37,039 nt of DNA from Clostridia bacterium (GTDB taxonomy: Bacteria; Bacillota; Sulfobacillia; SLMV01). The position numbers and the translations under genes are program-made. Under the pieces are notes generated by a model. It saw nothing but the letters and a program-made list of their open reading frames with translations, had not been told where the DNA came from and searched no databases. Of the stretch, positions 7,385-34,651 are shown piece by piece. Location of the stretch: positions 1 through 37,039 of the forward strand of contig PWSR01000120.1 of NCBI GenBank assembly GCA_003563985.1, written 5' to 3'. Each line of letters starts with the position of its first letter. Position 1 is the stretch's first letter.

Positions 7385-7452
7385 GTATCTCCCCCCCTCC
7401 GCGGCTGGTACACTGGAACCATCCAAACTGATCGAAATGAGGGATTCATCCC

Positions 7453-8100
7453 TTGGAACGCTGCCCGCTGTGCCGAGCCGACAACCGGGACACGTTGCAC
7501 GCATCCTCCCCCTCCGGGGGCGGTTACCTCCACTGCAACACCTGCGATTTGATCTACGTGACATTCGACGGAATCCTCTCCCCCGCCGAAGAACAATCTC
7601 GTTACCTAACCCACGACAACACCCACGAGAACGCGGGGTACGTCGATATGCTGACCCGGTTTATCGAGCGAACCGTGACACCTCATATCTCCACCGGAAA
7701 GGCCCTGGAGTTTGGATGCGGTCCCGGCCCGGTTCTGGCGGACCTCCTCGAAGCCCGTGGGTTCTCCGTCTCCCTGTACGATCCCTATTTCGCACCCGAT
7801 CCCGGCCCGCTGGATTGCACCTATGATATCGTCACCTCCACCGAGGTTCTCGAACACGTGACGGACGCACGATCTCTATGGGATCGGCTACGTCAGCTCG
7901 TGAAGCCGGGCGGCTACCTGGCCATCACCACGCGATTCCATCCGGGTCCCGACGCGTTCGCCGAGTGGTGGTATCGCCGGGACCCCACGCATATCCGCTT
8001 TTACTCCCGCAATACGATCCGGTGGGCCGCCGCCGAATACGACTGGGATCTCCTGTTATTGGACGACCGAGACACGGCAACCCTCCGGCGTCCACGGTGA
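7453..8100 (+). CDS. SAM-dependent methyltransferase with N-terminal zinc ribbon
   Basis: 215-aa cytoplasmic protein. Residues 1-35 form a small zinc ribbon (C4-x2-C7 and C28-x2-C31). Residues from about 75 are a class I methyltransferase (Methyltransf_23-like) with the SAM-binding glycine motif LEFGCGPGP, then the STEVLEHV motif and LVKPGGYLAITT. The end (RRDPTHIRFYSRNTIRW) is typical of this group of uncharacterised methyltransferases. Target unknown. TTG at 7453 is the first possible start after an in-frame TGA at 7438; a modest GAGGG lies upstream. It stands alone between the osmolyte operon and the ribbon-helix-helix gene. Confidence 0.82.
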   Translation: MERCPLCRADNRDTLHASSPSGGGYLHCNTCDLIYVTFDGILSPAEEQSRYLTHDNTHENAGYVDMLTRFIERTVTPHISTGKALEFGCGPGPVLADLLEARGFSVSLYDPYFAPDPGPLDCTYDIVTSTEVLEHVTDARSLWDRLRQLVKPGGYLAITTRFHPGPDAFAEWWYRRDPTHIRFYSRNTIRWAAAEYDWDLLLLDDRDTATLRRPR

Positions 8101-11605: not shown

Positions 11606-14086
11606 TTGGCAACGCAAAGCACGGAACAAAGGGAACGAAGGGAAGTTCGAGTCACGGGAATGACCTGCGCAGCCTGTGCCGCGGCGGTGGAGCGCGCCCT
11701 GGGCGCGCGCGAAGGCGTTTACGAAGCCTCGGTGAACCTGGCGACGAACTCCGCGAAGGTGGAATACGATCCCGATCGGATTTCCCCCCGGGAGATCGAC
11801 GAGGCCATTGAAGGGGCCGGGTACGGCGTCAGGACGCCCTCTGAGCGCGTCCAATTGGGAATCGGTGGTATGACGTGCGTAGCCTGTGCCCAATCCGTAG
11901 AGGCGACGTTGAACCGGGTGTCCGGCGTAGAATCGGCCTCGGTAAACGTATCCTCGGAACGCGCGCTCATCCGGTTCGACCCGTCCCGGGTCCAGTTGGA
12001 GGATCTCGTGGCGGCGGTGGAATCCACCGGATACACCGTTACCTCGCAGTCCTCTCGCCGGACGCGGGAGGACGACGAGGAGGAACGCCTGGCCGTCCAC
12101 AACCGGAACGTGATCGTGGCGTGGGCCCTGACCATACCCATCATCCTCTGGATGGTCCCCGAGATGATCTGGGGCATCATGTGGCCCACTCACTTGGTTC
12201 ACAATATCGGAGTGATCATCCTGGCGGTGGGCGTGGTATTCTACCCCGGTTGGACCACCCTGCGATCGGCACTCAATGCAATCCGGCACGGGACAGCCAA
12301 CATGGACGTATTGATCTTCCTCGGCACTACCATCTCCCTGGTCACGGGTCCCCTCAGCTTCGTAATCGGGATCGCCAACTACGCCGGGGTAGGCGGCATG
12401 ATCATGGCCTTCCACGTAACCGGTCGCGCCATCGAAGCCCGCGCCCGGGGGCGCGCCTCGCAGGCCATCAAGAAACTCCTGGAGTTGGAGGCGAAGACTG
12501 CTCGCGTGTTGGTTGACGGCGAGGAACGCGAGATCCCCATCGAGGAACTGTCCCCCGAGGACATCATGGTAGTCCGCCCCGGCGAGAAGATCCCCACCGA
12601 CGGCATCGTGGTATACGGCAGTACCTCGGTGGACCAGTCCATGGCCACCGGAGAATCGATGCCGGTCCGCCGTGACGAGGGCGAGGAAGTCATCGGAAGC
12701 ACCATGAACCTGGAGGGATACATCCGGGTCCGGGCCACCAAGGTGGGTGATGACACCTTCCTGTCGCAGGTCGTGCGCCTGGTCGAGGAGGCCCAGGGCA
12801 CTCGGGTTCCCATCCAGGCCCTGGCCGACAGGATCACGGCGGTCTTCGTCCCGGCGATCCTGGTCGTGGCCTCGCTGACCTTCCTGGCGTGGGTGCTCTT
12901 CCCGGAGCCCTTCCACGCGGCAGCCCGCTGGGGCGCGGGATTCCTCCCCTGGATCGACCCGACCCTGGATCGCTACACCCTGGCCCTTTCCGCCATGGTG
13001 GCAACCCTCGTAATCGCCTGCCCGTGCGCCCTGGGATTGGCCACCCCGACGGCATTGATGGTCGGATCGGGGAAGGGCGCCGAACACGGCATCCTCATCC
13101 GTCACGGCGAAGCCATCCAGACGATGCGCGAAGTGAAAGCCATCGTCTTCGACAAGACGGGTACCATAACCCGGGGAACCCCGGAGGTCACGGACGCGAT
13201 CCCGGTGGATGGAACCCCGGAGGATGAACTACTACGGGTGGCGGCCTCCGCCGAGGCCGGCTCGGAGCACCCCCTGGGGCAGGCCATCGTGCGCGAGGCC
13301 TCGCGTCGCCATCTGGAATACGAGGAAATCGAGGGGTTTGCCGCCGTCGTGGGTCGGGGCGTTAGGGCCCAGACCGAGACGGGGACTGTACTCGTGGGAA
13401 CGCCGGAACTCCTTCGGGAAAACGGTATCGATCGTATCGATACTCTGACCGAGCGGAAAGAAGCCCTGGAGGATATGGGGCGCACCGTGATGCTGGTCGC
13501 TTCCGCGGGACAACTACTGGGCATGATCGCGGTGGCCGATACACTCAAGGAAGACTCCGTCGCCGCCTTGGAAGAACTGGCTCGCCAAGGATTCCAGCTG
13601 GCGATGATCACCGGCGACAACCGGAGAACGGCCGAGGCCGTGGCGGCGGAGGTAGGCATCCACCGCGTACTGGCGGAAGTACTTCCCGACGGAAAGGTGG
13701 AAGCGCTGAAGCAACTGCAGGATGAATTCGGTAAGGTAGCCATGGTCGGCGACGGCATCAACGATGCCCCCGCCCTGGCCCAGGCCGACGTGGGGATCGC
13801 CATCGGGACGGGAACGGATATCGCCATCGAATCATCGGATATCACCCTCGTGGCCGGGGATCTGTCCTCCGTCGTGGCAGCGATCAACGTCAGTCGTGCC
13901 ACCTTCCGAAAGATCCGGCAAAACCTTTTCTGGGCCTCCATATACAACGTGGTGGCCATCCCCGTGGCCATCGCTGGACTCCTCCATCCGGTCATCGCCG
14001 AGGCGGCCATGGCCTTGAGTTCCGTGTCGGTGGTCACCAACGCAAACCTGCTCCACCGGGTCAAAATCGGGTTCAAGAGGAAATGA
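11606..14086 (+). CDS. copA: Copper-exporting P1B-type ATPase
   Basis: 826-aa inner-membrane ATPase that exports Cu(I). Two heavy-metal-associated domains lie at the N-terminus (GMTCAAC with C21/C24; GMTCVAC with C91/C94). Then come about eight membrane helices, the actuator motif TGES-type MATGESMPV (348-350), the ion-channel CPC motif (C472-P-C474) and the phosphorylation site D516 in FDKTGT. The HP motif SEHPLGQ, TGDNRRTAEAV and the hinge GDGINDAPALAQADVGIAIG follow. Length is usual for two-HMA CopA. The TTG at 11606 follows GAGAGGAG by about 8 bases. It is divergent from dat by about 150 bases and appears monocistronic; no copper regulator or chaperone is adjacent. A weak promoter-like pair (TTGATT 11543-11548, TAAACC 11567-11572) precedes it. 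Confidence 0.93.
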   Translation: MATQSTEQRERREVRVTGMTCAACAAAVERALGAREGVYEASVNLATNSAKVEYDPDRISPREIDEAIEGAGYGVRTPSERVQLGIGGMTCVACAQSVEATLNRVSGVESASVNVSSERALIRFDPSRVQLEDLVAAVESTGYTVTSQSSRRTREDDEEERLAVHNRNVIVAWALTIPIILWMVPEMIWGIMWPTHLVHNIGVIILAVGVVFYPGWTTLRSALNAIRHGTANMDVLIFLGTTISLVTGPLSFVIGIANYAGVGGMIMAFHVTGRAIEARARGRASQAIKKLLELEAKTARVLVDGEEREIPIEELSPEDIMVVRPGEKIPTDGIVVYGSTSVDQSMATGESMPVRRDEGEEVIGSTMNLEGYIRVRATKVGDDTFLSQVVRLVEEAQGTRVPIQALADRITAVFVPAILVVASLTFLAWVLFPEPFHAAARWGAGFLPWIDPTLDRYTLALSAMVATLVIACPCALGLATPTALMVGSGKGAEHGILIRHGEAIQTMREVKAIVFDKTGTITRGTPEVTDAIPVDGTPEDELLRVAASAEAGSEHPLGQAIVREASRRHLEYEEIEGFAAVVGRGVRAQTETGTVLVGTPELLRENGIDRIDTLTERKEALEDMGRTVMLVASAGQLLGMIAVADTLKEDSVAALEELARQGFQLAMITGDNRRTAEAVAAEVGIHRVLAEVLPDGKVEALKQLQDEFGKVAMVGDGINDAPALAQADVGIAIGTGTDIAIESSDITLVAGDLSSVVAAINVSRATFRKIRQNLFWASIYNVVAIPVAIAGLLHPVIAEAAMALSSVSVVTNANLLHRVKIGFKRK

Positions 14087-14096
14087 TGGCCAAACC

Positions 14097-14125
14097 CCGT
14101 CCGGGTTGCTAATCCGCCCGGACGG
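14097..14125. terminator. Stem-loop between convergent copA and MATE genes
   Basis: CCGTCCGGG (14097-14105) pairs with CCCGGACGG (14117-14125) around an 11-base loop. It begins 10 bases after the copA stop. The loop contains the MATE stop codon, and one arm lies in the last MATE codons. It is well placed to end copA transcripts, but without a T-run. Confidence 0.5.
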
Positions 14126-15527
14126 ACAGATTATTGTCCACCAGGCTCTGCTTCCAATCCCCTCGCCGGAACCAGGCGAGGGCCAGGGTACCTCCGATGA
14201 CGTTGCTGAAGAAGACCCCCCACCAGAGCCCGTCGGTGTGCAGCGCCGTCATCCCGGCCAACGTGTAGGCCAGGGGAATCCGCAGGCCCAGGAGTGCGAT
14301 GATAGAAAAGGCCATCGCCACGGCCGTCTTACCCGCACCCCGGAAGGCACCGTTCACCACGTTCATCACACCGATGAACCCGAAACTGAAGGCGGCCACC
14401 CGCAGGTAGGAGGCGGTGTTGGCCAGGGCCAGGACATCGGTGGCGGGCAAGAATATGCCGCCCACCGATTCCGCCGTTAGATAGATGACCGCCCCGAGCA
14501 GGGTCAAGACCGCCATCATGGAGCCGGCCCCGATCCACGTCGCCCGCTCCGCCCTTTGTGGCAACCCGGCCCCCAGATTCTGCCCCACCATCGCCGTCGT
14601 GGATTCGGCAAACCCCATGCTCGGCATGAACACCACAGAGATCACCCGGTTCCCGATTCCAAAGGCAGCCAACGCCGGCGTACCGTACGCCGCGACCACC
14701 GCGGTCATGGCCGTCATGCCGACGGCCCGGGAGGATTGCTCGATGGCGGCCGGCGCACCGATTGCCAATATCGTTCGTACCGTTTCCCAGCGCGGCCACA
14801 GGTCCTTGAACGTTGCCTTCAGCCCCAGCGTCCCGCGAAACAGGATGATCACCCCGAATATCGTGGCGAGCCCGCGGGAGAAGACCGTCGCCACGGCCGC
14901 CCCGGGGACACCCATGGCGGGGAATGGGCCCCAGCCGAAAATCAGGAAGGGATCCAACACGATGTTCAGGACGGTCGAAGCGATCATCAACCGCATCGGG
15001 CTCACCGTGTTTCCCGAACCCCGGATGAGTGCCTGGAAGACGAAGAAACCGAAAATGAAGGGTACACCAACGAACCATACCTTCAGGTAGGCGGCCGCAG
15101 CGGGGATGATAGCTGGATCGGGACCCAGGAGATGAACCACGGATTCCGAGAGGAAGAACCCCGCCACCGCGAGGACGATGGAGACGATACCGACGAAGCC
15201 GAAGGTCTGCGAAGCGATAAAATCCGCCGTGAGATTATTCCCCGCCCCCACATTCTGCGCCACCAGGGCAGTACCGGCGATGACCAGGCCCCCACCCAGC
15301 GAAATGAAGAGGAATACCACCGGGAATCCCAGTGAAATGGCCGCGACCGCCTCGGCACCCAACCGGCCCACCCAAAAAGTATCCGCCAGATTATAGATGG
15401 TCTGCAGAAAATTGCTCAGGACGATCGGCCACGCCAGCGTAAAGAGCGCCGCCGCGATGGGACCGCTGGTGAGGTCCAGCCGAACCTGGCCGGTCTTGGC
15501 CGGCGGAACCTTCAAAGGACGCGCCAC
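14109..15527 (-). CDS. MATE family multidrug efflux transporter
   Basis: 472-aa polytopic membrane protein of the MatE family (DinF/NorM-like), which expels cationic drugs or toxins using Na+ or H+. About twelve hydrophobic segments are visible, with family text in helix 1 (LFTLAWPIVLSNFLQTIYNL then ADTFWVGRLG), GMTAMTAVVAAYGTPALAAFG in the second half and FGFIGVMNVVNGAFRGAGKT. The GTG at 15527 was chosen because GGAGGGA lies about 8 bases upstream and it begins 1 base after the stop of the marR gene; longer readings would overlap marR. The marR-MATE pair is a two-gene operon, so expression is likely controlled by that repressor. Confidence 0.9.
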   Translation of the reverse strand: MARPLKVPPAKTGQVRLDLTSGPIAAALFTLAWPIVLSNFLQTIYNLADTFWVGRLGAEAVAAISLGFPVVFLFISLGGGLVIAGTALVAQNVGAGNNLTADFIASQTFGFVGIVSIVLAVAGFFLSESVVHLLGPDPAIIPAAAAYLKVWFVGVPFIFGFFVFQALIRGSGNTVSPMRLMIASTVLNIVLDPFLIFGWGPFPAMGVPGAAVATVFSRGLATIFGVIILFRGTLGLKATFKDLWPRWETVRTILAIGAPAAIEQSSRAVGMTAMTAVVAAYGTPALAAFGIGNRVISVVFMPSMGFAESTTAMVGQNLGAGLPQRAERATWIGAGSMMAVLTLLGAVIYLTAESVGGIFLPATDVLALANTASYLRVAAFSFGFIGVMNVVNGAFRGAGKTAVAMAFSIIALLGLRIPLAYTLAGMTALHTDGLWWGVFFSNVIGGTLALAWFRRGDWKQSLVDNNLSVRAD

Positions 15528-21254: not shown

Positions 21255-21274
21255 TATCGGTCATTGAACCGATA
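21255..21274. terminator. Short stem-loop between convergent genes
   Basis: TATCGGT (21255-21261) pairs with ACCGATA (21268-21274) around CATTGA, straddling the dnaE2 stop and 8 bases after the deacetylase stop. The stem is only 7 bp and has no T-run, so it is a weak terminator candidate. Confidence 0.35.
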
Positions 21275-24200
21275 GCGGCTCCAGGGTTTGGACCACCACG
21301 CTCGCGGCTCCACCCCGACGCCGTATCTCTCCTCGAACCGATAGCGGACCTTTGGCCCGGGGAAAGACCAGGTGACCGTATCGCCGATATGGGCCGGAGA
21401 ACAGTACCACATCAACCAAACCCGTTTCATCCTCCAGGGAAAAGAAAACGACCGTTTTCCCGCTTCGAGTCGGGGGCCTGTGCGGACATATGACCGTACC
21501 GGCTACGGCGACCTCCTCCCCTTCGGGCGCAGATCGAGCCTCGCGCGTCGTCACAAATCCCCTGTCGGTCAGCTCTTCCCGCTTGAGGCCCATCCAGCTG
21601 CCGCCGGCCTCGATACCCAGGATGCGCCTCTCCCAGACGATCTTCTCTTCGGGCGAAAAATCGGGGATATCCCGCGCAAACGACCCCACTCTTTTCCTTC
21701 GCCCCCCGGCGGTCAACATCCAAAGCAGGGAACGCCGATTCGGCTCCAGGGATGCCAGGGCACCGCACAGGATCAGGTTTTCCGCGAGATCCGCTCCGAT
21801 ATCGACCCGCCGCAGAAAATCCCCCGGGGAAGTGAAGAAACCATCGTCCCGGGCCCGGAGCAACCGATCCAGGGCTGCCCCTCCCATCCCCTTGACCTGG
21901 GCCAGGGATATCCGAATATTCCCTTCCTCGATGGTAAAGCGGGACCCGCTCGCATTGACATCCACCGGCAAGATCCCGATCCCCCGGCGCCGGACTTCGG
22001 TGCAGAGGGTATTGGGGGGATAGTAACCCATCGGCCAATTGCTCAGTACCGCGGCGAAAAACGCGGCCGGGTAATGCTGCGCGAGGTAGGCAGTACGATA
22101 GGCCGTGTTTCCGAAGGCCGCCGCGTGGGCTTCGCAGAATCCGTAGGATGCATAACCCCGGAGGTACGAATAGATCTGCTCCGCGATCTCCGCCCCGATA
22201 CCACGCTGGGCAGCCCGCTCGACGAAGAGGCGTCCCAATTCTTCCATCTCTACCCCGGGACGAGACCGACTCATGACCCGACGCAGGCGATCGGCCTCCC
22301 CCGGGCTGAACCCGGCGATCGCCACCGCGATCTCGATGACCTGCTCCTGGAAAAGCACGACCCCGTAAGTCTTGCGCAGTATCGGTTCCAAATCCGGGTG
22401 GATGTAAGTCACCGGCTCCGCCCCGTGGCGCCGGGCAATGTAGGGCTCCACCATATCACCCTTTATGGGGCCGGGGCGAATAAGAGCCACCGATGCGATG
22501 ATGTCCTCGAGATTTGAGGCACCCAGCCGAGATTGGAGCGCCCGCTGGGCCGGGCTCTCCAGTTGAAATACGCCCAGCGTCTCGCCGCGATGGAGCATGG
22601 CATAGGTTTCTTCGTCATCCTCGGGTATGGCCTGGTAATCGAAGGCGCGATCGCGGGTTCGAATATCCATCACGGCATCCTCCACGGCGGATAGCATTCG
22701 GAGCGATAGGAGGTCCAACTTGATCAACCCCAGTTCCTCTACGCCCTCCTTGTCGAATTGGCAAATCAATTCTCCCTTGGCGGAGCGCTGCAGCGGCGTG
22801 ACCTCCTCCAGGGGCCGATCGGAGATGACGAGTCCCCCGCAGTGGGTGGAAATGTGACGGGGAAATCCATCGACCGCCGCGGCGGCGGATAGCAGGCGTT
22901 CGTACCCCTCCCACCCCTCCGGATGGTTCCGGAATTCCGGCAGGATCTCCATAACCTCGGCGATATTGCCCGAACCGCTGCCCCGGGGGATCCGTTTGGC
23001 CAGGTCCCCCAGGACCTCGGGGCGAAATCCCATGGCCTTCCCCAGCTCCCGGACGGCCGAGCGGGCGCGAAAGGTATTGAAGGTGGCGACACCGGCCACG
23101 CGATTTTCCCCGTACTTCGCACGAACGTAATCCGCCACCCGGTCCCGATGACGGGCATCGAAGTCCACATCGATGTCGGGCTTTTCGCCGCGCTCTGGAC
23201 TCATAAACCGCTCGAACAATAGATTTCTCCCCAGGGCATCCACCTCGGTGATTCCCAGGCAATAGGCCACGGCCGAATCCGCCGCGGAACCCCTGCCGGC
23301 ACAACGAATCCCCCGCCCCCGGGCAAATCGGACGACATCCTCGACCAGGAGAAAGTAATCCGCATAGCCCTGGGATATGATCACATCCAGCTCTCGATCC
23401 AGGCGCTTGGCAACTTCACCGTCCGAATGACCGTACCGTTCCAGGGCACCTCGTCGCACCAGGTCCCGCAGGTGGTCCGCAGTCCCCACATCCCGGGGTA
23501 AGGCAAAGGTGGGATATCGCCTGCGGCCCAGGTCAGGAACCGGCTCGCAGGCCTCCGCGATGGCGAGCGTATTCCGTAGGGCATCCGGCAGGTGACGAAA
23601 ATGCCGGGTCATCGCCTCGGCTGATTTCAAGTAGTTCTCGGCATTCAGATGGCGTTCCGGGTTCGTCGCGGACAGGGTGGTGCCGGTGCGAACGCAGGTC
23701 AACAAGTCGTGGACGGGAAAGTCGGCCTTCCTCGCGTAGTGTACATCGGCCGAGGCCACCAGGGGGATGTCCAGTTCTTCACTCAATTCCACCAGGCTGC
23801 GGTGAAGGCCCAGGTCTCCCGGCAAAACGGCGGGTTGCAACTCCAAGTAAAGGGAGTCGCCCACCATCTCCCGGTAGAAAAGGGCCCTTTCCCGGGCTTC
23901 CCGGTAATGCCCGGATAATAGCAGGAAGGGGATCTCCCCCGCCCGACAACCCGACAGGACGAAGAGATCTTGCCCCATGCCAGCCAGCTCGGAGGGATCC
24001 AATCGGGGCCGGCCTCGCTCACCTCGTCGATGCGCCCGGGTCAACAACTTGCATATCCCGGCGTATCCCTCGGCGTTTCTGGCCAGGGCCACCAGGTGGT
24101 ATCCGCCCGGGAGGGTGAACTCCACCCCCTGGATCGGCTTGACCCCATATTTCTCGGCCGTCCGCCGAAAATCCACCGCTCCTCCCACGTTGTCATGGTC

Positions 24201-24317
24201 CGTCAGGGCTAGAGCCCTCATCTCCCCGGCGACTGCCCGTCGGACCAGCTCTCCGACGGAGCTTCCACCGTCGAGAAAAGAGTAGGGAGAATGGCAATGC
24301 AGGTGTACGAACTCCAC
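21261..24317 (-). CDS. dnaE2: Error-prone DNA polymerase DnaE2 (ImuC)
   Basis: 1018-aa C-family polymerase for damage-induced translesion synthesis. The N-terminal PHP domain (1-200) keeps HLHCHS (H5, H7, H9) and TDHDN. The polymerase core has GRGSAADS, PDIDVDF (catalytic D383 and D385) and LIKLDLLSLRML (third Asp). SYGFCEAHAAAFG and NWPMGYYPPNTL in place of replicative DnaE text are typical of DnaE2; an OB-like domain follows (EVAVAGTVICPHRPP). The length is that of DnaE2, shorter than DnaE1. The GTG at 24317 follows GGGGGA by 7 bases. It is the last gene of the imuB-DUF6504-dnaE2 operon, 13 bases after the small gene, and thus under the same SOS promoter. Confidence 0.93.
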   Translation of the reverse strand: MEFVHLHCHSPYSFLDGGSSVGELVRRAVAGEMRALALTDHDNVGGAVDFRRTAEKYGVKPIQGVEFTLPGGYHLVALARNAEGYAGICKLLTRAHRRGERGRPRLDPSELAGMGQDLFVLSGCRAGEIPFLLLSGHYREARERALFYREMVGDSLYLELQPAVLPGDLGLHRSLVELSEELDIPLVASADVHYARKADFPVHDLLTCVRTGTTLSATNPERHLNAENYLKSAEAMTRHFRHLPDALRNTLAIAEACEPVPDLGRRRYPTFALPRDVGTADHLRDLVRRGALERYGHSDGEVAKRLDRELDVIISQGYADYFLLVEDVVRFARGRGIRCAGRGSAADSAVAYCLGITEVDALGRNLLFERFMSPERGEKPDIDVDFDARHRDRVADYVRAKYGENRVAGVATFNTFRARSAVRELGKAMGFRPEVLGDLAKRIPRGSGSGNIAEVMEILPEFRNHPEGWEGYERLLSAAAAVDGFPRHISTHCGGLVISDRPLEEVTPLQRSAKGELICQFDKEGVEELGLIKLDLLSLRMLSAVEDAVMDIRTRDRAFDYQAIPEDDEETYAMLHRGETLGVFQLESPAQRALQSRLGASNLEDIIASVALIRPGPIKGDMVEPYIARRHGAEPVTYIHPDLEPILRKTYGVVLFQEQVIEIAVAIAGFSPGEADRLRRVMSRSRPGVEMEELGRLFVERAAQRGIGAEIAEQIYSYLRGYASYGFCEAHAAAFGNTAYRTAYLAQHYPAAFFAAVLSNWPMGYYPPNTLCTEVRRRGIGILPVDVNASGSRFTIEEGNIRISLAQVKGMGGAALDRLLRARDDGFFTSPGDFLRRVDIGADLAENLILCGALASLEPNRRSLLWMLTAGGRRKRVGSFARDIPDFSPEEKIVWERRILGIEAGGSWMGLKREELTDRGFVTTREARSAPEGEEVAVAGTVICPHRPPTRSGKTVVFFSLEDETGLVDVVLFSGPYRRYGHLVFPRAKGPLSVRGEIRRRGGAASVVVQTLEPLSVQ

Positions 24318-24330
24318 GGGAATTCCCCCG

Positions 24331-24582
24331 TCAATCGTAGATTCGATAAAGCACCCAGGGACCCGGACCCCGAACCTCCCGGCAAATCTCCACGAGACCG
24401 CCGCGGGCTATCCGGAGCCGATAGAACACCTTTTCTCGCTCCCCGGACCACCAACATCCCGTGTCTCGCCATCGTTCCTCGATGGCGACGATCTCAACCC
24501 ATACATCACCCAGGAGTACGGCCTCGGGAGTTCCCCGACATGATGTCCGGACACCCACCCTTCGATTCACCAATCGGCCCAT
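24331..24582 (-). CDS. DUF6504-like small protein in the mutasome operon
   Basis: 83-aa protein between imuB and dnaE2. Its pattern (VGVRTSCRGTPEAVLLGDVW, VEIVAIEERWRDTGCWW, then FYRLRIARGGLVEICRE and WVLYRIYD) fits what I recall of DUF6504: an N-terminal VRV-G-P strand, the E-x-W-R/WW block and a C-terminal W-x-L-x-R-x-Y. The fold is probably a small beta-barrel; function unknown. The ATG at 24582 has GGGGGAGG 8 bases upstream at the end of imuB. The ATG at 24588, overlapping the imuB stop (TGATG), is too close to that site. Its position between two translesion genes suggests an accessory role in the same complex. Confidence 0.72.
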   Translation of the reverse strand: MGRLVNRRVGVRTSCRGTPEAVLLGDVWVEIVAIEERWRDTGCWWSGEREKVFYRLRIARGGLVEICREVRGPGPWVLYRIYD

Positions 24583-24587
24583 TTCCA

Positions 24588-25790
24588 TCACCTCCCCCGG
24601 AGCGGATCCCATAACTCCAGCATCCGCTCCCGGCGACAGGATCCCGCATCCTCGCCCCACCGGGCAATTTCACCCGGGAATTTTCGATCGAGGTCTTCTA
24701 CCAGTTCCGCCAGTATCTCCCGGCGATTCCGTTTCCCCCCGAGGATGGATACCTGCTCCAGTTCCCCGGGGCGCAACCCCGAAAACTCGATCCGGAAACG
24801 CTTTGGATACATTACGCCTCTGTCGTTCCAAAGGCGTCGCAGGGCGGATATCAAGGCCATCTGGCGTCGCCGGGGTCCGGAGAATTCCCTCTGTCCCCGC
24901 TCCCATCCGCCGTCTTCTCCGGACAACCAAAGGCTCATGCGCTTCGCCACTAGGGACTCGCGGTCCAGTTCCTCTGCGAGATCCCGGCAACACTGGACCA
25001 GGAATCCCTCGATGGCGGTGGACGTCCAATTCTCGACCTCTCCCTCGCGAACCCTTCTCGGGGGCGGATAGTTGCCGGTAACGATGGTACCGTCTCGCCC
25101 CCGGGCCCAACTGACCAATCGCCGTGCCCACCCCGGACCGAATCGCTCCCGCAGCAGCTCCTCGGAAATCCGGGCTACATCACCGAAGCGATCGAGCCCC
25201 AGGTGGGCGAGATCCCTGGAGATGTCCCCGGGGATCAATTGCGAAAAGGCGGGCGAGAGGGAAGCCAGGAGCCCCTCGCTTCCCTCCGCCCTTATCGCCA
25301 CCACCCGGGCCGCACGCCCCTCCAGGTGCCGAACCTCGCCGAACCCCCGCCCCGCAGCACCCAGGGCAACATCCGCCAAAACCTTTCCGGGCCCGTATCC
25401 GATGTGAAGGCTGTGCCCGAGATCCGGGGGGAGGCGGACCAGCAGTTCGCACACGAGGGCCAATGGATCCTCTCCCCGCGCCAGGTCGATCATCAGGTGA
25501 CCCGGCGATATCATCTCCACGCCGGGTGATACATCCGCCGCCGCCGCCGCGAAGATCTCCGCCCTCGGTCCATATCGGACGAGATCGCACTCCACCGCGC
25601 GGATACCGGGGCAGCGCATGGCGGCTTCCGACGATGATATACCGATCTCGATCCCCTCCCCGCGGGCGCGCGGACAAGTATCGACTACCGCGCCCTCCCG
25701 CAACACGATGGTTGGTCTGCACTCATCCCCGGGAACTCCGGCCTCCAGGGCGGCGAGCAGTCCCTCTAAAATGATTCCGAGCGCGGGCAT
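24588..25790 (-). CDS. imuB: ImuB-like Y-family polymerase homologue, catalytic residues missing
   Basis: 400-aa protein of the Y-family polymerase fold. The usual first catalytic Asp (in DMDxFFASVE) is replaced in ALGIILEGLLAALEAG, and the S-x-DE motif is replaced by SPGHLMIDL, so it should not polymerise DNA. This is the hallmark of ImuB, which bridges DnaE2 to the sliding clamp. Later parts include a thumb/helix-hairpin-helix region (DLAHLGLDRFGDVARISEEL followed by LRERFGPG) and a little-finger-like domain. The ATG at 25790 follows GGGGGT by 6 bases; the in-frame ATG at 25814 lies inside the SOS box and is rejected. First gene of the operon; there is no imuA next to it. Confidence 0.85.
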   Translation of the reverse strand: MPALGIILEGLLAALEAGVPGDECRPTIVLREGAVVDTCPRARGEGIEIGISSSEAAMRCPGIRAVECDLVRYGPRAEIFAAAAADVSPGVEMISPGHLMIDLARGEDPLALVCELLVRLPPDLGHSLHIGYGPGKVLADVALGAAGRGFGEVRHLEGRAARVVAIRAEGSEGLLASLSPAFSQLIPGDISRDLAHLGLDRFGDVARISEELLRERFGPGWARRLVSWARGRDGTIVTGNYPPPRRVREGEVENWTSTAIEGFLVQCCRDLAEELDRESLVAKRMSLWLSGEDGGWERGQREFSGPRRRQMALISALRRLWNDRGVMYPKRFRIEFSGLRPGELEQVSILGGKRNRREILAELVEDLDRKFPGEIARWGEDAGSCRRERMLELWDPLRGR

Positions 25791-25807
25791 GATCCGACCC
25801 CCTAAAT

Positions 25808-25821
25808 CGAACATTTGTTCT
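25808..25821 (-). promoter_or_regulatory. LexA/DinR-type SOS box
   Basis: On the minus strand AGAACAAATGTTCG matches the Gram-positive LexA consensus CGAACRNRYGTTCG at 13 of 14 positions. It lies 4-17 bases downstream of the predicted transcription start of the imuB operon and 18 bases before the imuB ATG, where LexA would block transcription until DNA damage. Confidence 0.88.
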
Positions 25822-25831
25822 GGTAGGAGCT

Positions 25832-26928: not shown

Positions 26929-26938
26929 GCCACCTCCC

Positions 26939-26966
26939 GGGGGAGCCCCTCCTTTCGGGCTCCCCC
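26939..26966 (+). terminator. Stem-loop terminator after the DUF4349 gene
   Basis: GGGGGAGCCC (26939-26948) pairs perfectly with GGGCTCCCCC (26957-26966) around CTCCTTTC, starting 11 bases after the stop. The T-content afterwards is modest (GTCCTCCTCG). Confidence 0.65.
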
Positions 26967-27103
26967 GTCCTCCTCGCGGGAAACCCAAGCGCCACCGCGC
27001 CCCCATCCGGGCAGGAATGACCGAAGGCAGGGAGAACAGTAGGTAGGTACTCGACTACCCGGAGTGTCCCCTGGGGGCGCATGCGAATCGAGGAGGGATC
27101 GAG

Positions 27104-27838
27104 ATCTCCGATTTCAAGGCCGCGGTCATCATACCCGCGTACAATGAAGGACCCCGGATCGGTTCGGTAATCGAAGTCGTAACGCGGTCCGGGCTCTTCG
27201 ATGCCATAATCGCAGTGGATGATGGTTCGCGGGATGATACCTGGGAGGCGATCTGCAGTCAACCGGTAACCGGGCTTCGACACCGTGAAAACCGGGGCAA
27301 GGCGGCCGCTCTGCAGACGGGATTGAATGCGATCCCGGGGGCCGACGCCGTAGCCTTCATCGATGCCGACCTCCTGGGAATCACTCCCGAGCACCTACAG
27401 GATCTCCTGGAGCCCATCCGAGCCCATCCCGACAAGCTGATGACGGTGGCCCAGTTCATCCGCGCCCATCCCGGGATCGACGCGGTACAAAACTGGTTCT
27501 CCATCCTCAACGGCCAACGCGTTCTCAGCCGGCGCTTCATCGACGAGTTACCGGACCTGACCCCCCTTCGATTCGGGGTGGAGGTCTTTATGACGCGATA
27601 CGCTCGCGATCTCGGACCTGGGCATATGACCGTTCCGTGGCCGGGCGCAAGCCACGTCCTGAAGGAGACGAAGTATGGATTGATCCCCGGGTTCGTCGAA
27701 CGCATGCGAATGTACAAAGAGGTATTGGGGACCTACTGGTGCCGATATCCTCGCTGGGCGAGGGAGCGTTTTGACATCCGGGAAGGCCGAGAGAACATCC
27801 CGCAGTTATCAGAGCGGGAAACCCGGGGCGATGACTGA
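27104..27838 (+). CDS. Family 2 glycosyltransferase with apparent AUC start
   Basis: 244-aa cytoplasmic GT-A glycosyltransferase without membrane helices. The start is followed by SDFKAAVIIPAYNEGPRIGS, then AIIAVDDGSRDDT, RHRENRGKAAALQTGL and the metal-binding DADL in AVAFIDADLLG, all classical GT2 features. The acceptor is unknown; a dolichol-phosphate-mannose-synthase-like or wall-sugar role is possible. No ATG, GTG or TTG lies in frame between the in-frame TAG at 27044 and GTG 27215, which sits inside the DDGS motif. AGGAGGG (27091-27097) stands 6 bases before ATC at 27104, so I take ATC as the start. A CTG at 27071 or an indel relative to ATG 27081 are alternatives. Confidence 0.8.
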   Translation: MSDFKAAVIIPAYNEGPRIGSVIEVVTRSGLFDAIIAVDDGSRDDTWEAICSQPVTGLRHRENRGKAAALQTGLNAIPGADAVAFIDADLLGITPEHLQDLLEPIRAHPDKLMTVAQFIRAHPGIDAVQNWFSILNGQRVLSRRFIDELPDLTPLRFGVEVFMTRYARDLGPGHMTVPWPGASHVLKETKYGLIPGFVERMRMYKEVLGTYWCRYPRWARERFDIREGRENIPQLSERETRGDD

Positions 27839-27892: not shown

Positions 27893-30800
27893 TCAACAAC
27901 TCGAATCGCAGTGAAAGGCGAACCCACACCAGTGACAGCGGGCCCCGCGATGCTTCCGAAAATCCGCCTCGATCGCCGAGTCCTCGATGCTGCGGATCAA
28001 CTGCCGGGCGCGGGCGAATACGTCCTCTCCGCCCTCCTCGCCCGGGGGAAGGCGATGGTGGACACCGGGATGAAGGAAATGCAGGTACGCATCCGTTGCC
28101 GGATAGTAGCTCTTCCCGACCACCCCCAGGTATAGTTCCAACTGGAACCGATAGGATTCCGCCCGCTCGGCGATTCCCCCCGCGGAAACGCGATCGGTCT
28201 TGTAATCGACGACGCGCCAGTCCCCTTCTTCCGCCCGATAGAGGGCATCCACCACGCCGGAAATGTACCGATCCTCCAAACCCGGGACCTCCTCGAGGAA
28301 ACCCCATTCGCTGTACGCATCGCCCGAGCGGTGGGCGGTGCGAAACGCCCGGAAAAAGGTGCTCTCCGCGAAGACACGAACCAGTTCGAGCATCCGTCGA
28401 CGGACACCCGCCATGCCATCGGCTCCCTCCCAGAGGGCTGCCTCGCGCATGGCGGCGATGACCGCACCCTCCACGCTCTCCTCCAACAACAGCTCGCAGG
28501 CTCGATGGACCAGCGTACCGAAGCGCATGGGGTCCAGCGGGGAACGGTCGCGCCCGGGCGCCCCGGGATCGACCTCCGGGGCCAATTCGGGCCAGCCGAG
28601 TCGATGCCGCAGCAGGTAGAGACGGGGGCACTGCAGGTAATCGGTCAGGGCCGTCACGGAATACGTTTGCATGCCCGCCGGCTTCCCCGGGGGCAAGGGA
28701 TCCGGCAACCCGAGATCGGCCACCTTTCCGTAGTGGGCCAGCAGTTCCGCGGCATCTCCGGACGAACGATCCCGATCGCGGGGTGCCCCGGCGTTCTCCA
28801 ACCGCGCCAGGTCCAGGTGCGTCACCCGGATCGCCGGGGCGTGCTGCGGCTCCAACCCCGCGGCGTACCACCCGAAGTACGCGTTTTTCCCAAAGGCATC
28901 GACGGGGGGAATCCCGTCCTCCGCCGATTCCGGTTCCTCGCCGGCACCGCCCACCAGCACGAGCCGGCGTTCCGCGCGGGTGCAGGCGACGTAGAAAATC
29001 CGCATCTCCTCTTCGAGGCTCAGTTCCTTGTCCACGGCCGCCAGGTCCTCGAAGAAAGGGGCCGAATGATCCGGCAGATTCAATCCCAACCCGTGGGAAG
29101 CGTCCAGTACAAAGGATGTATTGGTGCGGGCCTGGGAGGAATCGGCGTCGGGAATGATCACCGTATCGAACTCCAAGCCCTTCGCTCGATGGATGGTGGA
29201 CAGTACCACCTCACCCTCGGGAATCGACCCGGCGGTCCCTTCATCCGCGGCGCCCACGCGAACCAGGGTGTCCAGGTGTCGGGCCAACTGCGCATAACCC
29301 GTTCCCTCTTCTCCTCCCATCTTCTCGGCCAGGGCGATGGCGCGGTCCAGGTTCAACCAGGCGTCTTCCGCCCAGGGATGCCCCGACAACACCTCGCGAT
29401 AGACGCTGTTCTCCAGCACGTGAACTAACAGCTCGTGGGGTGGCAGGAGCCGGCTCCAGGCCCTCCAGGTGGCGAGCGCAGACTGGCAGGCCACCAGCCG
29501 GTGATCCCGGGTTTCCGCGCCCAATGCACACAATCCATCCCAAAGGCTGCCCGCGGCCGCGTCCGATATTTCGAGTAAGATCTCGTCCTCCAGGGAGAAA
29601 AAGGGAGAACGAAGCACCGTGGCGAGGGAGATGTCGTCGGAGGCGTCGGCCAACCAGTGAAGAACGGCCTTGAGATCGGATACCTCCTCGGATTCGAAAA
29701 AACCGCGCCCTCCCGCGACTCGGTACGGGATCCCCCGGGCGGCCAGGGCCCGGCCACAGGGCTCCAGGGAGTTCCCCGATCGACCCAGGATGGCCACGTC
29801 CCCCGGGGATCCACCCGAGGACAGCCACGTCTCGATGCGATCCGCGATCACTTCCCCCTGGCGACGACGAAACTCGCCCCGATCCTTCCCCGTGGAAGGG
29901 CGGGCCAGCATCAGGAATTCTACCGACTGCCCTTCACTCGCCTCGGCCTCCGGGGCCGGCGACAGGGGTACGTACTCGGCGAAGCGCCGGGAAAAGACCG
30001 AGTTGGTCAGATTCACCAGGTCGGGTGCGCTGCGGAAGTTGGTGTCCAGGTGAACATCCTCGGCGCCCCCCCGCCGGAGTTGCTCCGCTGCGGAGCGGAA
30101 TATGCCGACATCGGCGCCCCGGAACCGGTAGATGGATTGATCGGCATCGCCGACCACGAAGACGCCGCCATCTCGCTCCGATCCGACGGGAGATTCCCCG
30201 CGGATGAGTTGAACGATTCTCCATTGGACTTCATCCGTATCCTGGAATTCATCCACGAGCAAGTGGCTGTATCTCCTCTGTAATCGGAGCAAGAACTCCG
30301 GGTGGGATTCCATGGTATTCAATGCCAGCTTCTGCAGATCATCGAAGTCCAGGACACCCCGACGCTCCTTTTCCGTCTCGTAGCGACGATCCATCTCCTC
30401 CACGGCGTGCAGAAACTCCCGGGTGGCGGCCCACTCCCGGCGAAGATCGGTCTTCCGACCGATGGCGTGGAGGGCACCCACCGGCTCCCGGTAATCCTTG
30501 GGGCAACTCTTGGTGGGCAGTGCCCGCCGCAGGTCTTCGAGGGCAGCCTCGGCGTCGCCCGCCTCGAACCGATGGCGAAGATCTCGCCATCGCCCGGCCA
30601 AGGCCTCCACCTTGGGTGGATACACCTTGGACCGGGAGGCCGCGCCGGCCCGGTGCAGTTCCAGTATCCGTTCGACGGTATCGATAACCTCCCGGGTGTC
30701 GCCAGAATCCAACCCTCCGGACGCCCAGGTGCCCGGGGTACCACCGATCCGGTAGTACATGTTCTCAATGGAATCCGATGTGACCCGGACCACGTCTCGC

Positions 30801-31408
30801 CAGCTCATCGTGTGCCGCATGGCGGCATCTCGAACCCGCTGCATCAGTTCCGTGGGAGAGGACCCGAATCGATTTCCGTGTCCCCGCCGATCCGCCATCT
30901 CCCGCAGATGCTCGGCGTCCCAGGGACCCAAGGCCTCGTCCAATACCTCCCGGGATATATCCTCCAGGATCAACCGGCGCTGATACGGATCGATGACGGC
31001 GAACTCCGGATCCAGTCCCGCCAGGTGCGGGTAATCGCGGAGCACGCTCTGGCAAAAACCGTGGATGGTCCCGAGGTATGATGCCTCGATTCGCCAAACC
31101 AGTGACCTCCAGTGGTTTGCCCCGTGGGCATCCCCATCATCACGGGCCGCGATCCATCGCGACGCCAGGCGATGGCGCAACCGCTCCTTCATCTCGGCGG
31201 CGGCGCGATTCGTGAAGGTGATGGCCGCGATTCGCTCGGGGGCGACCCCGGTGGCCAACAGGTGCTCCATCCGGCCGACCAGCACCCGGGTCTTGCCGCT
31301 ACCGGGGCCCGCACCGACGACGACGTCACCGGTTTGGCTCTCGATGGCCCGTCCCTGGGGCTCCGTCGGCTCCGGCAGTGCTCCGCCCGCGAAAGGATAT
31401 CTATTCAT
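27893..31408 (-). CDS. addA: AddA-like UvrD helicase-nuclease with Fe-S-type cysteine set
   Basis: 1171-aa ATP-dependent helicase/nuclease for double-strand-break end resection. SF1 motifs: Walker A GAGPGSGKTRVL, Ia ITFTNRAAAEM, Walker B LLVDEFQDTDEVQW, III VGDADQSIYRFRGAD, V TIHRAKGLEFDTV, VI FYVACTRAERR. The C-terminal PD-(D/E)XK nuclease has FGTLVHRACE, GVVDALYRAEEGDW and VVDYKTDR. Unusually for AddA, a Cys in LQCPRLYLLRH is matched at the very end by C1158-x2-C1161-x5-C1167, the spacing of the AddB iron-sulfur staple, plus a terminal C1171. The ATG at 31408 follows GGAGGAGG by 6 bases and overlaps the addB stop by 8 bases, so the pair is translationally coupled. Confidence 0.9.
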   Translation of the reverse strand: MNRYPFAGGALPEPTEPQGRAIESQTGDVVVGAGPGSGKTRVLVGRMEHLLATGVAPERIAAITFTNRAAAEMKERLRHRLASRWIAARDDGDAHGANHWRSLVWRIEASYLGTIHGFCQSVLRDYPHLAGLDPEFAVIDPYQRRLILEDISREVLDEALGPWDAEHLREMADRRGHGNRFGSSPTELMQRVRDAAMRHTMSWRDVVRVTSDSIENMYYRIGGTPGTWASGGLDSGDTREVIDTVERILELHRAGAASRSKVYPPKVEALAGRWRDLRHRFEAGDAEAALEDLRRALPTKSCPKDYREPVGALHAIGRKTDLRREWAATREFLHAVEEMDRRYETEKERRGVLDFDDLQKLALNTMESHPEFLLRLQRRYSHLLVDEFQDTDEVQWRIVQLIRGESPVGSERDGGVFVVGDADQSIYRFRGADVGIFRSAAEQLRRGGAEDVHLDTNFRSAPDLVNLTNSVFSRRFAEYVPLSPAPEAEASEGQSVEFLMLARPSTGKDRGEFRRRQGEVIADRIETWLSSGGSPGDVAILGRSGNSLEPCGRALAARGIPYRVAGGRGFFESEEVSDLKAVLHWLADASDDISLATVLRSPFFSLEDEILLEISDAAAGSLWDGLCALGAETRDHRLVACQSALATWRAWSRLLPPHELLVHVLENSVYREVLSGHPWAEDAWLNLDRAIALAEKMGGEEGTGYAQLARHLDTLVRVGAADEGTAGSIPEGEVVLSTIHRAKGLEFDTVIIPDADSSQARTNTSFVLDASHGLGLNLPDHSAPFFEDLAAVDKELSLEEEMRIFYVACTRAERRLVLVGGAGEEPESAEDGIPPVDAFGKNAYFGWYAAGLEPQHAPAIRVTHLDLARLENAGAPRDRDRSSGDAAELLAHYGKVADLGLPDPLPPGKPAGMQTYSVTALTDYLQCPRLYLLRHRLGWPELAPEVDPGAPGRDRSPLDPMRFGTLVHRACELLLEESVEGAVIAAMREAALWEGADGMAGVRRRMLELVRVFAESTFFRAFRTAHRSGDAYSEWGFLEEVPGLEDRYISGVVDALYRAEEGDWRVVDYKTDRVSAGGIAERAESYRFQLELYLGVVGKSYYPATDAYLHFLHPGVHHRLPPGEEGGEDVFARARQLIRSIEDSAIEADFRKHRGARCHWCGFAFHCDSSC

Positions 31409-34400
31409 CGTTCGCCTCCTCCCCACGCGGCGCCCCGGGAACGTATTCCTTGTCGGCCATCCGATCCCGCGAGTACCGGCAAAGGCCCGGGTACGGACAA
31501 TATTCGCAGTCCCCTGAATCAAAGGGGAACATGGGGAATCGACCCTCGTTCATGCCGCGCCAGGATCTCAAGATGTGTCGGGCCGCCGCCGCCAGGAGGG
31601 CATCCATATCCGGGATCGCCCGGGATTCCGGCAATCCGAGGATGGGCAATGCCTCGGGCCGATAGATACCCCGCTCCCAGTTCGCCCCCGAAACGCTGAT
31701 ATACCCCCCGCCCAGCAGGTCCTTGTCCGGGTTCTCGATCCCGGCTGCCATGAGGTACAGGGGCATCTGGGCATCGCCACCCCGCTCGGCCGTATCGGCC
31801 TTGGGGGGATTCGTCCCCAGCTTGTAGTCGAATACCATCAGGCGATCGCGCTCCTCTCCCCCGGGATTCTCCCAGATGTCCAGTCGGTCGATCGTTCCCG
31901 AGATCTTTACATCTTCTCGAACTGCCACCCCGGCTTCACCGAGCAATCGACCCAGGGGATGCTCGAAGCGGTGTTCCAACCGATAGGGTTGCATATCCCT
32001 TCCCGGCACCCGTGAACGACGTTCGTCCTCGGCTTCGAGGAGGTCGCCCAGGGTGGATATTGCACGCCTCGCAACGGACTCCCACCACACGTCGCCGATC
32101 CACCCCAAACCCTCGCGAAGTTCCGCCAACGCCTCTTCCAGGATCTCCTCTAGGATCTCGCGGCGGGCGCCGAAGCGGGTATCATCTCCTTCTCCCAGGG
32201 CCAATAGCGGGATCAGATCGCGATAGTATCTCTCCAAGACGCGATGGTACAGCTGGCCCGCGCGGTGGGCCGCCAGGGATTCCTCGGGGCGAAAGCCATC
32301 ATCGAGTCCAAGGATGTGGGACGCGAAAAAGCGATAGGGACAACGGCCGTAGGCATCCAATCCCGTGACGGCCAAGCGCCCCCGCCGGGCCAGGTAGGAT
32401 GCCACCTTCGACGTCGCGGATTGTCCCAGGATGCCGTCCCAGGGACCGAATTCGCGGGACCAGCGGGCGGACTCGGCGGCGGTGGCGCGCGCCAACTCCC
32501 GGGCACCGGGGTTCGGTAGGGAGCGGATGGAGGGACCGGGAAACCTCTCGCGTCGCCCGCGTTCCAGGGTTTCTCCGGCCAACTCCAGCGTCTCCTCCAG
32601 CAAACCATTATGTCCCCGCACCGCTCCCAAGAGGCGGAGTCGCATCCGGGTCCACGTTCCCGGGGTTCGATCCCGGTCCCGGGACCCGGTGAGGTCTTCG
32701 TACGACTCCGGGTTCTCCATGGCCAACTCTTGGAGGTAGGGGGACACCGTCGTAGTTCTCCCGTCACTCTTGGCCGAATGGATGAGGAGTAGATCGGCCT
32801 CGCAGGCGCGGACCGCCCGGTAGAACCGGCGATTCTGCTCCCGGTAGGATTCCGCATCCGGCGGGTGATCACGCACCAATCGACCGATCCACGAAGACGC
32901 CACCGGACCCGGGTAGGTTCCGGCCGAGATATCGGGCATGGCCACGATTTGATAGGTCTCCCCGGATAATTCCTCGGGCAATGCCAGTCGAACACCCCTG
33001 CCAGCCCCCGGACGTCTATCCAGGAGATCGGGCGTCGCGGGCTCTCCCACGAGAACGCCGGCGAGCATTTCCTCGAAGGCGGCGGAGAAGATCGTTCGAG
33101 AGCACCGGGGATCGGTCTGGCCGAACAATCCACCGAGGGACAGGCGCAAGCCATCGGACATCTTGCGCCAGGCATCCAGATCCCGGAGGGTATCCACCCC
33201 GTATCCCCCGTCGGATTCCAGGACCTCCCGGATGCCCCGGGGCACCCCCAGGGTGTCCAATGCCCGGAGGAAGCCGTCGACCAACGGCTGGCTTCCCCTC
33301 TCGGGCACGCCATCCAGGATGCGATTCAAATCCGAGAGGGCGCCTTCCATGGCGGATATCTCGTCGATCCATCCGCCGAGGGTACCCGTGGATTCCCAGG
33401 CGATGGCCCCGGAACCACCCGTACGGGCCCGAAGGGATCGCTTCACCGTGGCCAGGTGTTCCCGGATGTCCTCGCCTTCCAGCTGGGGCGGCACGAAACG
33501 CGTTAAACGAAGCAGTCGTTCCCACTCCCCCAGGTACGGACCCGAAACCAGGTCGACCAGGTTCTCCGCCGAGGGGGACTCCAGCACCCGCAGGAGGGCC
33601 CGGGCCACCCGTCCCGGCCCGGTCTCGCCCAGGGTGACGGCTGGAGCGGTATCCACGGGAACGCCGGCCCGAACGAGTTGCTTCGCTCCCATCCGAAGGC
33701 GAGCGGAAGAAGAATAGACCACGCAACAGCGGTGGACGGGCGTACCGCCCCGGATCTCCTCCTTGATTCGCGCCGCCAGTTCTTCGACACCCTCTGCATC
33801 ATCGGACACGCGAAAGGCGCTGGTTCGGGGTCCCGTGGTGGGATCCCACCCCGCGGGGTGAAATATGCGCGCGGCGAGTCCCGAGCGGTTCCGGTCGGGA
33901 TCGTAGGCGACGACGTGGGATTCCAAATCTCCCAGGTCCCGTTTCAATTCATCGGTGGTCGGGAAGAGATCGGGACGCTCTCCGTCCCACGCCAGCAGCA
34001 ACAGCGGGTCTCGGGACCGGCAGAAGGCAGCGGTAAGCAATTCGATCGTGGGTTGATCCAGGTGCCAGAATCCCTCCACGGTAAAACGATCCCAGAGGAA
34101 TCCTTCGTCCTCGCCTTCCCGCAACGCCCGGGCTAGCACGTGAAATAGGCGCGGGCCGTCGGCCAAATCGTATTCGGCGAGGAGATCCTCGTACGCGACG
34201 AGCAGGGCCCGGAGTTCCCCGGGGAGGTCTCCCGCATCCGCCAATTCGCCCTCGCGGGTTTCCCTGACGAATCGCGCCAAGGACTCGGCCGTTCCCCGGC
34301 GTCCCCAGATTCCGGCGAGCCCACCCGACGGGGAGGGTTCAATTCGAGCCACCAGTGCGCGGATGAGGGCGTTCTGTTCCCATCCCTGTAGACGCCGGAG

Positions 34401-34631
34401 CCCGATCCCCATCCGGATGGCCAGTTCTCCGATCCATCCACCCATCATCTTCACGGGAATCCGATCTCCGCCCGGTGAGCCGGTCCGTTCCATGTGCATC
34501 CTTCGGCGTTGAATCATGAGATTGCGGTCGGCCACGAGGTAGAGATCCCGGGGGGAGCCTTCATCCCCCCGTGCGCTACCGCCGAGACGCGCTCCGGCCA
34601 ATGCCTTCGCATCGAGATCCGTCGTTTTCAC
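31401..34631 (-). CDS. addB: AddB-like nuclease subunit with Fe-S staple
   Basis: 1076-aa partner of AddA. The N-terminal half is a degenerate UvrD-like helicase: no Walker A (GxxGxGKT) is seen, as in RexB-type proteins. The C-terminal RecB-like nuclease has GQLYHRVLERYYRD, ISGTIDRLDI and VFDYKLG (Asp and DYK active site). The iron-sulfur staple is a Cys in GRCPYRFFASHILGL plus C1042-x2-C1045-x5-C1051 (CEYCPYPGLC). This subunit should cut one strand while AddA unwinds and cuts the other, leading to RecA loading. The GTG at 34631 has GGAGG 8 bases upstream. A strong intrinsic terminator ends only about 20 bases before this start, leaving little room for a separate promoter. Confidence 0.9.
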   Translation of the reverse strand: MKTTDLDAKALAGARLGGSARGDEGSPRDLYLVADRNLMIQRRRMHMERTGSPGGDRIPVKMMGGWIGELAIRMGIGLRRLQGWEQNALIRALVARIEPSPSGGLAGIWGRRGTAESLARFVRETREGELADAGDLPGELRALLVAYEDLLAEYDLADGPRLFHVLARALREGEDEGFLWDRFTVEGFWHLDQPTIELLTAAFCRSRDPLLLLAWDGERPDLFPTTDELKRDLGDLESHVVAYDPDRNRSGLAARIFHPAGWDPTTGPRTSAFRVSDDAEGVEELAARIKEEIRGGTPVHRCCVVYSSSARLRMGAKQLVRAGVPVDTAPAVTLGETGPGRVARALLRVLESPSAENLVDLVSGPYLGEWERLLRLTRFVPPQLEGEDIREHLATVKRSLRARTGGSGAIAWESTGTLGGWIDEISAMEGALSDLNRILDGVPERGSQPLVDGFLRALDTLGVPRGIREVLESDGGYGVDTLRDLDAWRKMSDGLRLSLGGLFGQTDPRCSRTIFSAAFEEMLAGVLVGEPATPDLLDRRPGAGRGVRLALPEELSGETYQIVAMPDISAGTYPGPVASSWIGRLVRDHPPDAESYREQNRRFYRAVRACEADLLLIHSAKSDGRTTTVSPYLQELAMENPESYEDLTGSRDRDRTPGTWTRMRLRLLGAVRGHNGLLEETLELAGETLERGRRERFPGPSIRSLPNPGARELARATAAESARWSREFGPWDGILGQSATSKVASYLARRGRLAVTGLDAYGRCPYRFFASHILGLDDGFRPEESLAAHRAGQLYHRVLERYYRDLIPLLALGEGDDTRFGARREILEEILEEALAELREGLGWIGDVWWESVARRAISTLGDLLEAEDERRSRVPGRDMQPYRLEHRFEHPLGRLLGEAGVAVREDVKISGTIDRLDIWENPGGEERDRLMVFDYKLGTNPPKADTAERGGDAQMPLYLMAAGIENPDKDLLGGGYISVSGANWERGIYRPEALPILGLPESRAIPDMDALLAAAARHILRSWRGMNEGRFPMFPFDSGDCEYCPYPGLCRYSRDRMADKEYVPGAPRGEEANDE

Positions 34632-34651
34632 GGGTTAATCCTCCGTCCACA

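Follow-up and report, generated by a model that had tools for sequence, protein, structure and literature searches.

A glycosyltransferase gene of a Clostridia bacterium with a probable AUC start codon behind a strong Shine-Dalgarno sequence

The window, i.e., the whole stretch of 37,039 nucleotides that was analyzed, forms contig 179 in a draft genome of 1.88 Mb, which is about 91% complete and split into 211 contigs. The nearest named relatives of this genome are the "Clostridia bacterium" MAGs CSSed165cm_110R1, B1Sed10_200, and CSSed165cm_371, the names of which match the sample names of an Illumina-sequenced study of soda-lake sediments (PMC6146748). The gene of interest encodes a glycosyltransferase of the GT2/GpgS-like type and is adjoined on the opposite strand by AddA-like and AddB-like helicase-nuclease genes (27893-31549 and 31401-34634, minus) that slightly overlap each other. 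Adjacent to one another on the minus strand (21261-24407 and 24588-25829) are genes for a DnaE-type polymerase of 1018 aa and for a protein like Y-family polymerases; the pair resembles a mutagenesis cassette of the DnaE2/ImuB type. The features of the glycosyltransferase locus are as follows:

26938-26967, plus: strong hairpin 3' of the upstream DUF4349 gene (predicted fold, z = -2.5), without a T run and hence not a textbook terminator
27017-27043, plus: ATG open reading frame (MTEGRENSR) in the frame of the glycosyltransferase, stopped by TAG
27044-27046, plus: in-frame TAG closing the frame upstream
27071-27073, plus: in-frame CTG, rival start with an 11-residue extension, 6 nt behind GGAG (27061-27064)
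27081-27170, plus: out-of-frame ATG with a 29-codon open reading frame, stop TAA at 27168
27091-27097, plus: Shine-Dalgarno sequence (SD) AGGAGGG, ending 6 nt before the ATC
27104-27106, plus: ATC, proposed start codon, 7 codons before VIIPAYNE
27104-27838, plus: GT2/GpgS-like glycosyltransferase gene read from ATC, 244 codons and TGA
27215-27217, plus: GTG, first canonical codon in frame, too deep in the fold to serve as the start

The hairpin probably separates the transcripts of the DUF4349 gene and the glycosyltransferase gene.

The identity of the product was judged from Pfam, an AlphaFold model, PDB folds, and the substitution pattern. It matches Pfam Glycos_transf_2 at 2.3e-20, and the model, built from 13 relatives (pLDDT 87, pTM 0.84), displays a GT-A fold with the N-terminal PAYNE strand and the DDGS and DAD motifs; strand 1 comprises residues 6-12 and strand 2 residues 34-39. 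The closest PDB folds are mycobacterial glucosyl-3-phosphoglycerate synthases. The likeness to GpgS and related GT-A enzymes lies in the predicted fold and a weak profile match, whereas the identity is only 20-24% and the score against the NCBIfam glucosyl-3-phosphoglycerate synthase equivalog (43.9 bits) falls far below the cut-off of 262 bits, so any substrate suggested by the fold is tentative. A solute product of the glucosylglycerate type would suit a saline habitat. In comparisons with three relatives the differences fall mostly on third codon positions (0.59-0.65, against 0.19-0.23 for second positions), a pattern of purifying selection on an intact gene.

This intact gene lacks a usable ATG, GTG, or TTG. 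After the TAG at 27044 its frame (27047-27838) reads V L D Y P E C P L G A H A N R G G I E I S D F K A A V I I P A Y N E, and the first canonical codon is GTG 27215, in agreement with the original prediction that no such codon lies in frame back to that stop. GTG 27215 corresponds to residue 38 of the model, and a start there would remove the nucleotide-binding beginning of the fold, including all of strand 1 and the greater part of strand 2, which bears out the earlier argument that the GT2 core needs a start upstream of 27122. No NTG codon is present in any of the frames between 27098 and 27119. The perfect AGGAGGG predicted 6 bases ahead of ATC 27104 was found at 27091-27097. A second in-frame ATC at 27098 touches the SD and is therefore too near to it.

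The SD is complementary to the 16S rRNA of the same genome, which ends GGATCACCTCCTTTCT and carries a normal anti-SD. The aligned spacing to ATC 27104 is 7, within the usual range of 6-10 in this genome. Since AGGAGG is frequent in the genome (745 occurrences in 802 kb, both strands), its presence alone carries little weight. The chance of finding it 5-9 nt upstream of one given codon is about p = 0.002, and about p = 0.006 when all four homologous start columns are allowed; among shuffled leaders, 0.2% gave AGGAGG at such spacing with an in-frame near-cognate codon. The SD may pair with UCUCC at 27105-27109; the predicted RNA fold was no better than that of shuffles, and a search of Rfam gave no noteworthy match.

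The start column was compared in ten homologues encoded by other family genomes, a paralogue encoded by this genome itself, and a single homologue of greater distance. The homologues carry ATG or GTG 5-8 codons ahead of the conserved (I/V)IPAYNE motif, most of them with a recognizable SD. The three closest have ATG at 6 codons (G001), GTG at 6 or 8 (G002), and ATG at 6 (G007), and the paralogue (L002) shows AGGAGGGGGAGTT-ATG (GCAGGAGGGGGAGTT-ATG) at its start. The gene in the window has ATC at 7 codons with a perfect SD. The comparison with relatives, which had been proposed beforehand as a check, thus supports the location: the ribosome site is where homologues lead one to expect it, and the codon alone is unusual. 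The AUC is kept in none of the relatives compared and most likely arose in this lineage by replacement of an ATG or GTG that the ancestor had.

Near-cognate starts were also found in other genes of this genome and its family. At the start column of infC, ATA is present in eight of eight family genomes, behind the extended SD AGGGGGTGAT or a close variant (L042, G000:C200:5909-6409 minus, in this genome; L040, L041, and L043-L047), and coincides in alignment with the N-terminus of a solved Bacillus-type IF3; for two of these genomes, a GTG two codons further upstream is an alternative. The infC gene of Staphylococcus aureus likewise starts with AUA (PMC13009471). The nth gene for endonuclease III (L163, in L090 at 207-941 plus) has CTG, with AGGGGG upstream, at the column where its relatives have GTG, GTG, and ATG. 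The nth gene of G005 (L169) also has CTG where the sister species G004 has GTG, and the two CTG starts appear to have arisen independently. A flippase-like transporter gene (L179, in L081 at 12952-14328 minus) lacks a canonical start and has ATC behind AGGAG. Its G002 orthologue (L181, in L243 at 1431-2810 minus) also lacks one, its ATC standing likewise 17 codons from RI(A/S)SIL; the ATC column is thus common to both genomes and is preceded at 8 nt by a run of purines that resembles an SD. Beside infC, a gene for a TrmH-like methyltransferase (L107, 4437-5312 minus) has the start candidate ATC-ACC-AGC; it may start at this ATC, which is uncertain because an internal ATG exists.

Four other explanations of the GT2 start were weighed. 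The true codon might be ATG (or GTG/TTG), ATC being a minority allele or a mistake of base calling or assembly. Relatives carry ATG or GTG there, a single base separates ATG from ATC, and the assembly is fragmented, as its contig number and completeness indicate. Per-site consensus errors of short reads are rare. Against an error also speak the Illumina data used in the related soda-lake study (PMC6146748) and the near-cognate starts that recur in this genome and its family; they stand at matching columns, one of them in two species, a pattern that errors do not explain. These other starts tip the balance toward a genuine AUC, and we consider an error unlikely.

Initiation at CUG 27071, giving the N-terminal extension (M)GAHANRGGIEISDFK, seems more improbable still. 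This codon is in frame with GGAG 6 nt upstream, CUG appears to serve as the start of nth in this genome, and positions 27071-27103 have a weakly coding-like codon usage (+2.2 nats). However, no homologue conserves such an extension, the SD would be of 4 nt only, and the perfect SD would become functionless coding sequence. There is little reason to believe that ATG 27081 is parted from the GT2 frame by a single-base indel, be it genomic or an assembly fault, yielding a short extension or a freshly broken gene. This ATG sits 23 nt upstream of the ATC, and in G001, too, an ATG stands 15 codons ahead of the motif, but G001 has the usual-place ATG (6 codons) as well, ATG 27081 is preceded by a mere GGGGG at about 3 nt, a long homopolymer is absent, and the remainder of the gene is without decay. 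Readthrough of TAG 27044 from ATG 27017 is scarcely credible since, although that ATG lies in the GT2 frame, the upstream peptide is conserved in no relative and the perfect downstream SD would be left unexplained.

Translation of the GT2 gene thus probably begins at AUC 27104 behind the strong SD, as judged from sequence and its comparison. We infer that AUC is used, that methionine occupies position 1, and that expression is reduced. The SD 6 nt upstream would position the 30S subunit over AUC 27104, where the ordinary initiator fMet-tRNA (CAU) would pair with A and U and be mismatched at the third position, so that the protein would start with methionine, (M)SDFKAAVIIPAYNE. By fixing the mRNA, the SD may let fMet-tRNA tolerate this mismatch, less efficiently, as in the S. 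aureus cases. IF3 would be expected to discriminate against AUC, leading to low synthesis; lower expression than from a canonical start is what analogy with other species predicts.

Altered initiation machinery was considered as a cause and checked in part. Both initiator tRNAs carry the GGG/CCC anticodon stem and the C1-A72 mismatch, IF3 is full-length with both domains present, and, the anti-SD being normal as well, no loosening is visible. With the initiator tRNA, IF3, and anti-SD all ordinary, the likely mechanism is the one shown in S. aureus, in which a strong SD makes up for a weak start codon. The S. aureus starts of cvfC1 (AUU), ccpN (AUA), citZ (AUA), and infC (AUA) resemble the GT2 start in differing from AUG at the third base only, in their strong SD at normal spacing, and in belonging to ordinary protein-coding genes (PMC13009471). 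Such AUU/AUA starts behind extended SDs have about 10-30% of AUG activity (PMC13009471). In contrast to the GT2 start, which is AUC, belongs to a glycosyltransferase, is not conserved, and is proposed from sequence, the S. aureus starts were mapped by retapamulin profiling and two of the sites are conserved across species. The AUA of S. aureus citZ is lineage-specific (PMC13009471), and codon conservation is thus helpful and not required. The AUU/AUA start of infC shares with GT2 the third-base mismatch and the expected discrimination by IF3; it differs in being conserved and autoregulated by IF3, whereas the GT2 start has no evident regulatory role. In E. coli, AUC belongs to a group of seven codons that are treated as the most efficient initiators (PMC12350097). 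In the literature consulted, AUC starts are rarer than AUU/AUA starts.

A survey with a simple gene model covered 560 kb of this genome, in which 293 strong genes start with ATG (168), GTG (70), or TTG (55) and nine further genes lack a canonical start near the coding boundary. After inspection three of the nine stand, i.e., GT2 (ATC), nth (CTG), and the flippase gene (ATC); most of the others proved to be shadows on the antisense strand or to possess a regular GTG. Among the candidates rejected as near-cognate starts, the minus-strand ORFs of L090 and L095 were antisense shadows, the L075 D-aminoacylase and the plus-strand L081 candidate have GTG, and the window ORF at 7441-8100 and NrdR have TTG. 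When orthology across three congeners was used (about 390-404 genes), accepted cases besides infC numbered three in this genome (G000), none in G001, and one in G002. The automatic ortholog screens gave many false candidates, with alignments running into shadow ORFs and SD-adjacent noise, and the remaining cases were read by eye. The excess of this genome over the two congeners was not significant (3 of about 147 versus 1 of about 254, p = 0.14; p = 0.30 without GT2, which was given in advance). According to published data, CUG accounts for 0.024% of bacterial starts (PMC11497404), and among 61,358 ancestral AUG starts a change to CUG was seen in 2 and a change to AUU in 1 (PMC5622118). The total of near-cognate starts, from candidates checked by eye, is above what these rates suggest.

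The GT2 AUC would be an uncommon but understandable case of a weak start. Standard gene finders take only ATG, GTG, and TTG, so genes such as this one are truncated (here to GTG 27215, with the first strand lost) or dropped. A broader idea, which we regard as tentative and rather doubtful, is that this soda-lake Clostridia family tolerates AUC, CUG, and AUA starts in ordinary housekeeping genes well above the rate of other bacteria, with strong SDs compensating, so that its start rules would effectively be wider than NTG. If true, a lineage with several ordinary AUC- and CUG-start genes would be a natural system for learning how far a strong SD can replace the start codon, and would offer a way to ask whether IF3 stringency differs among bacteria.
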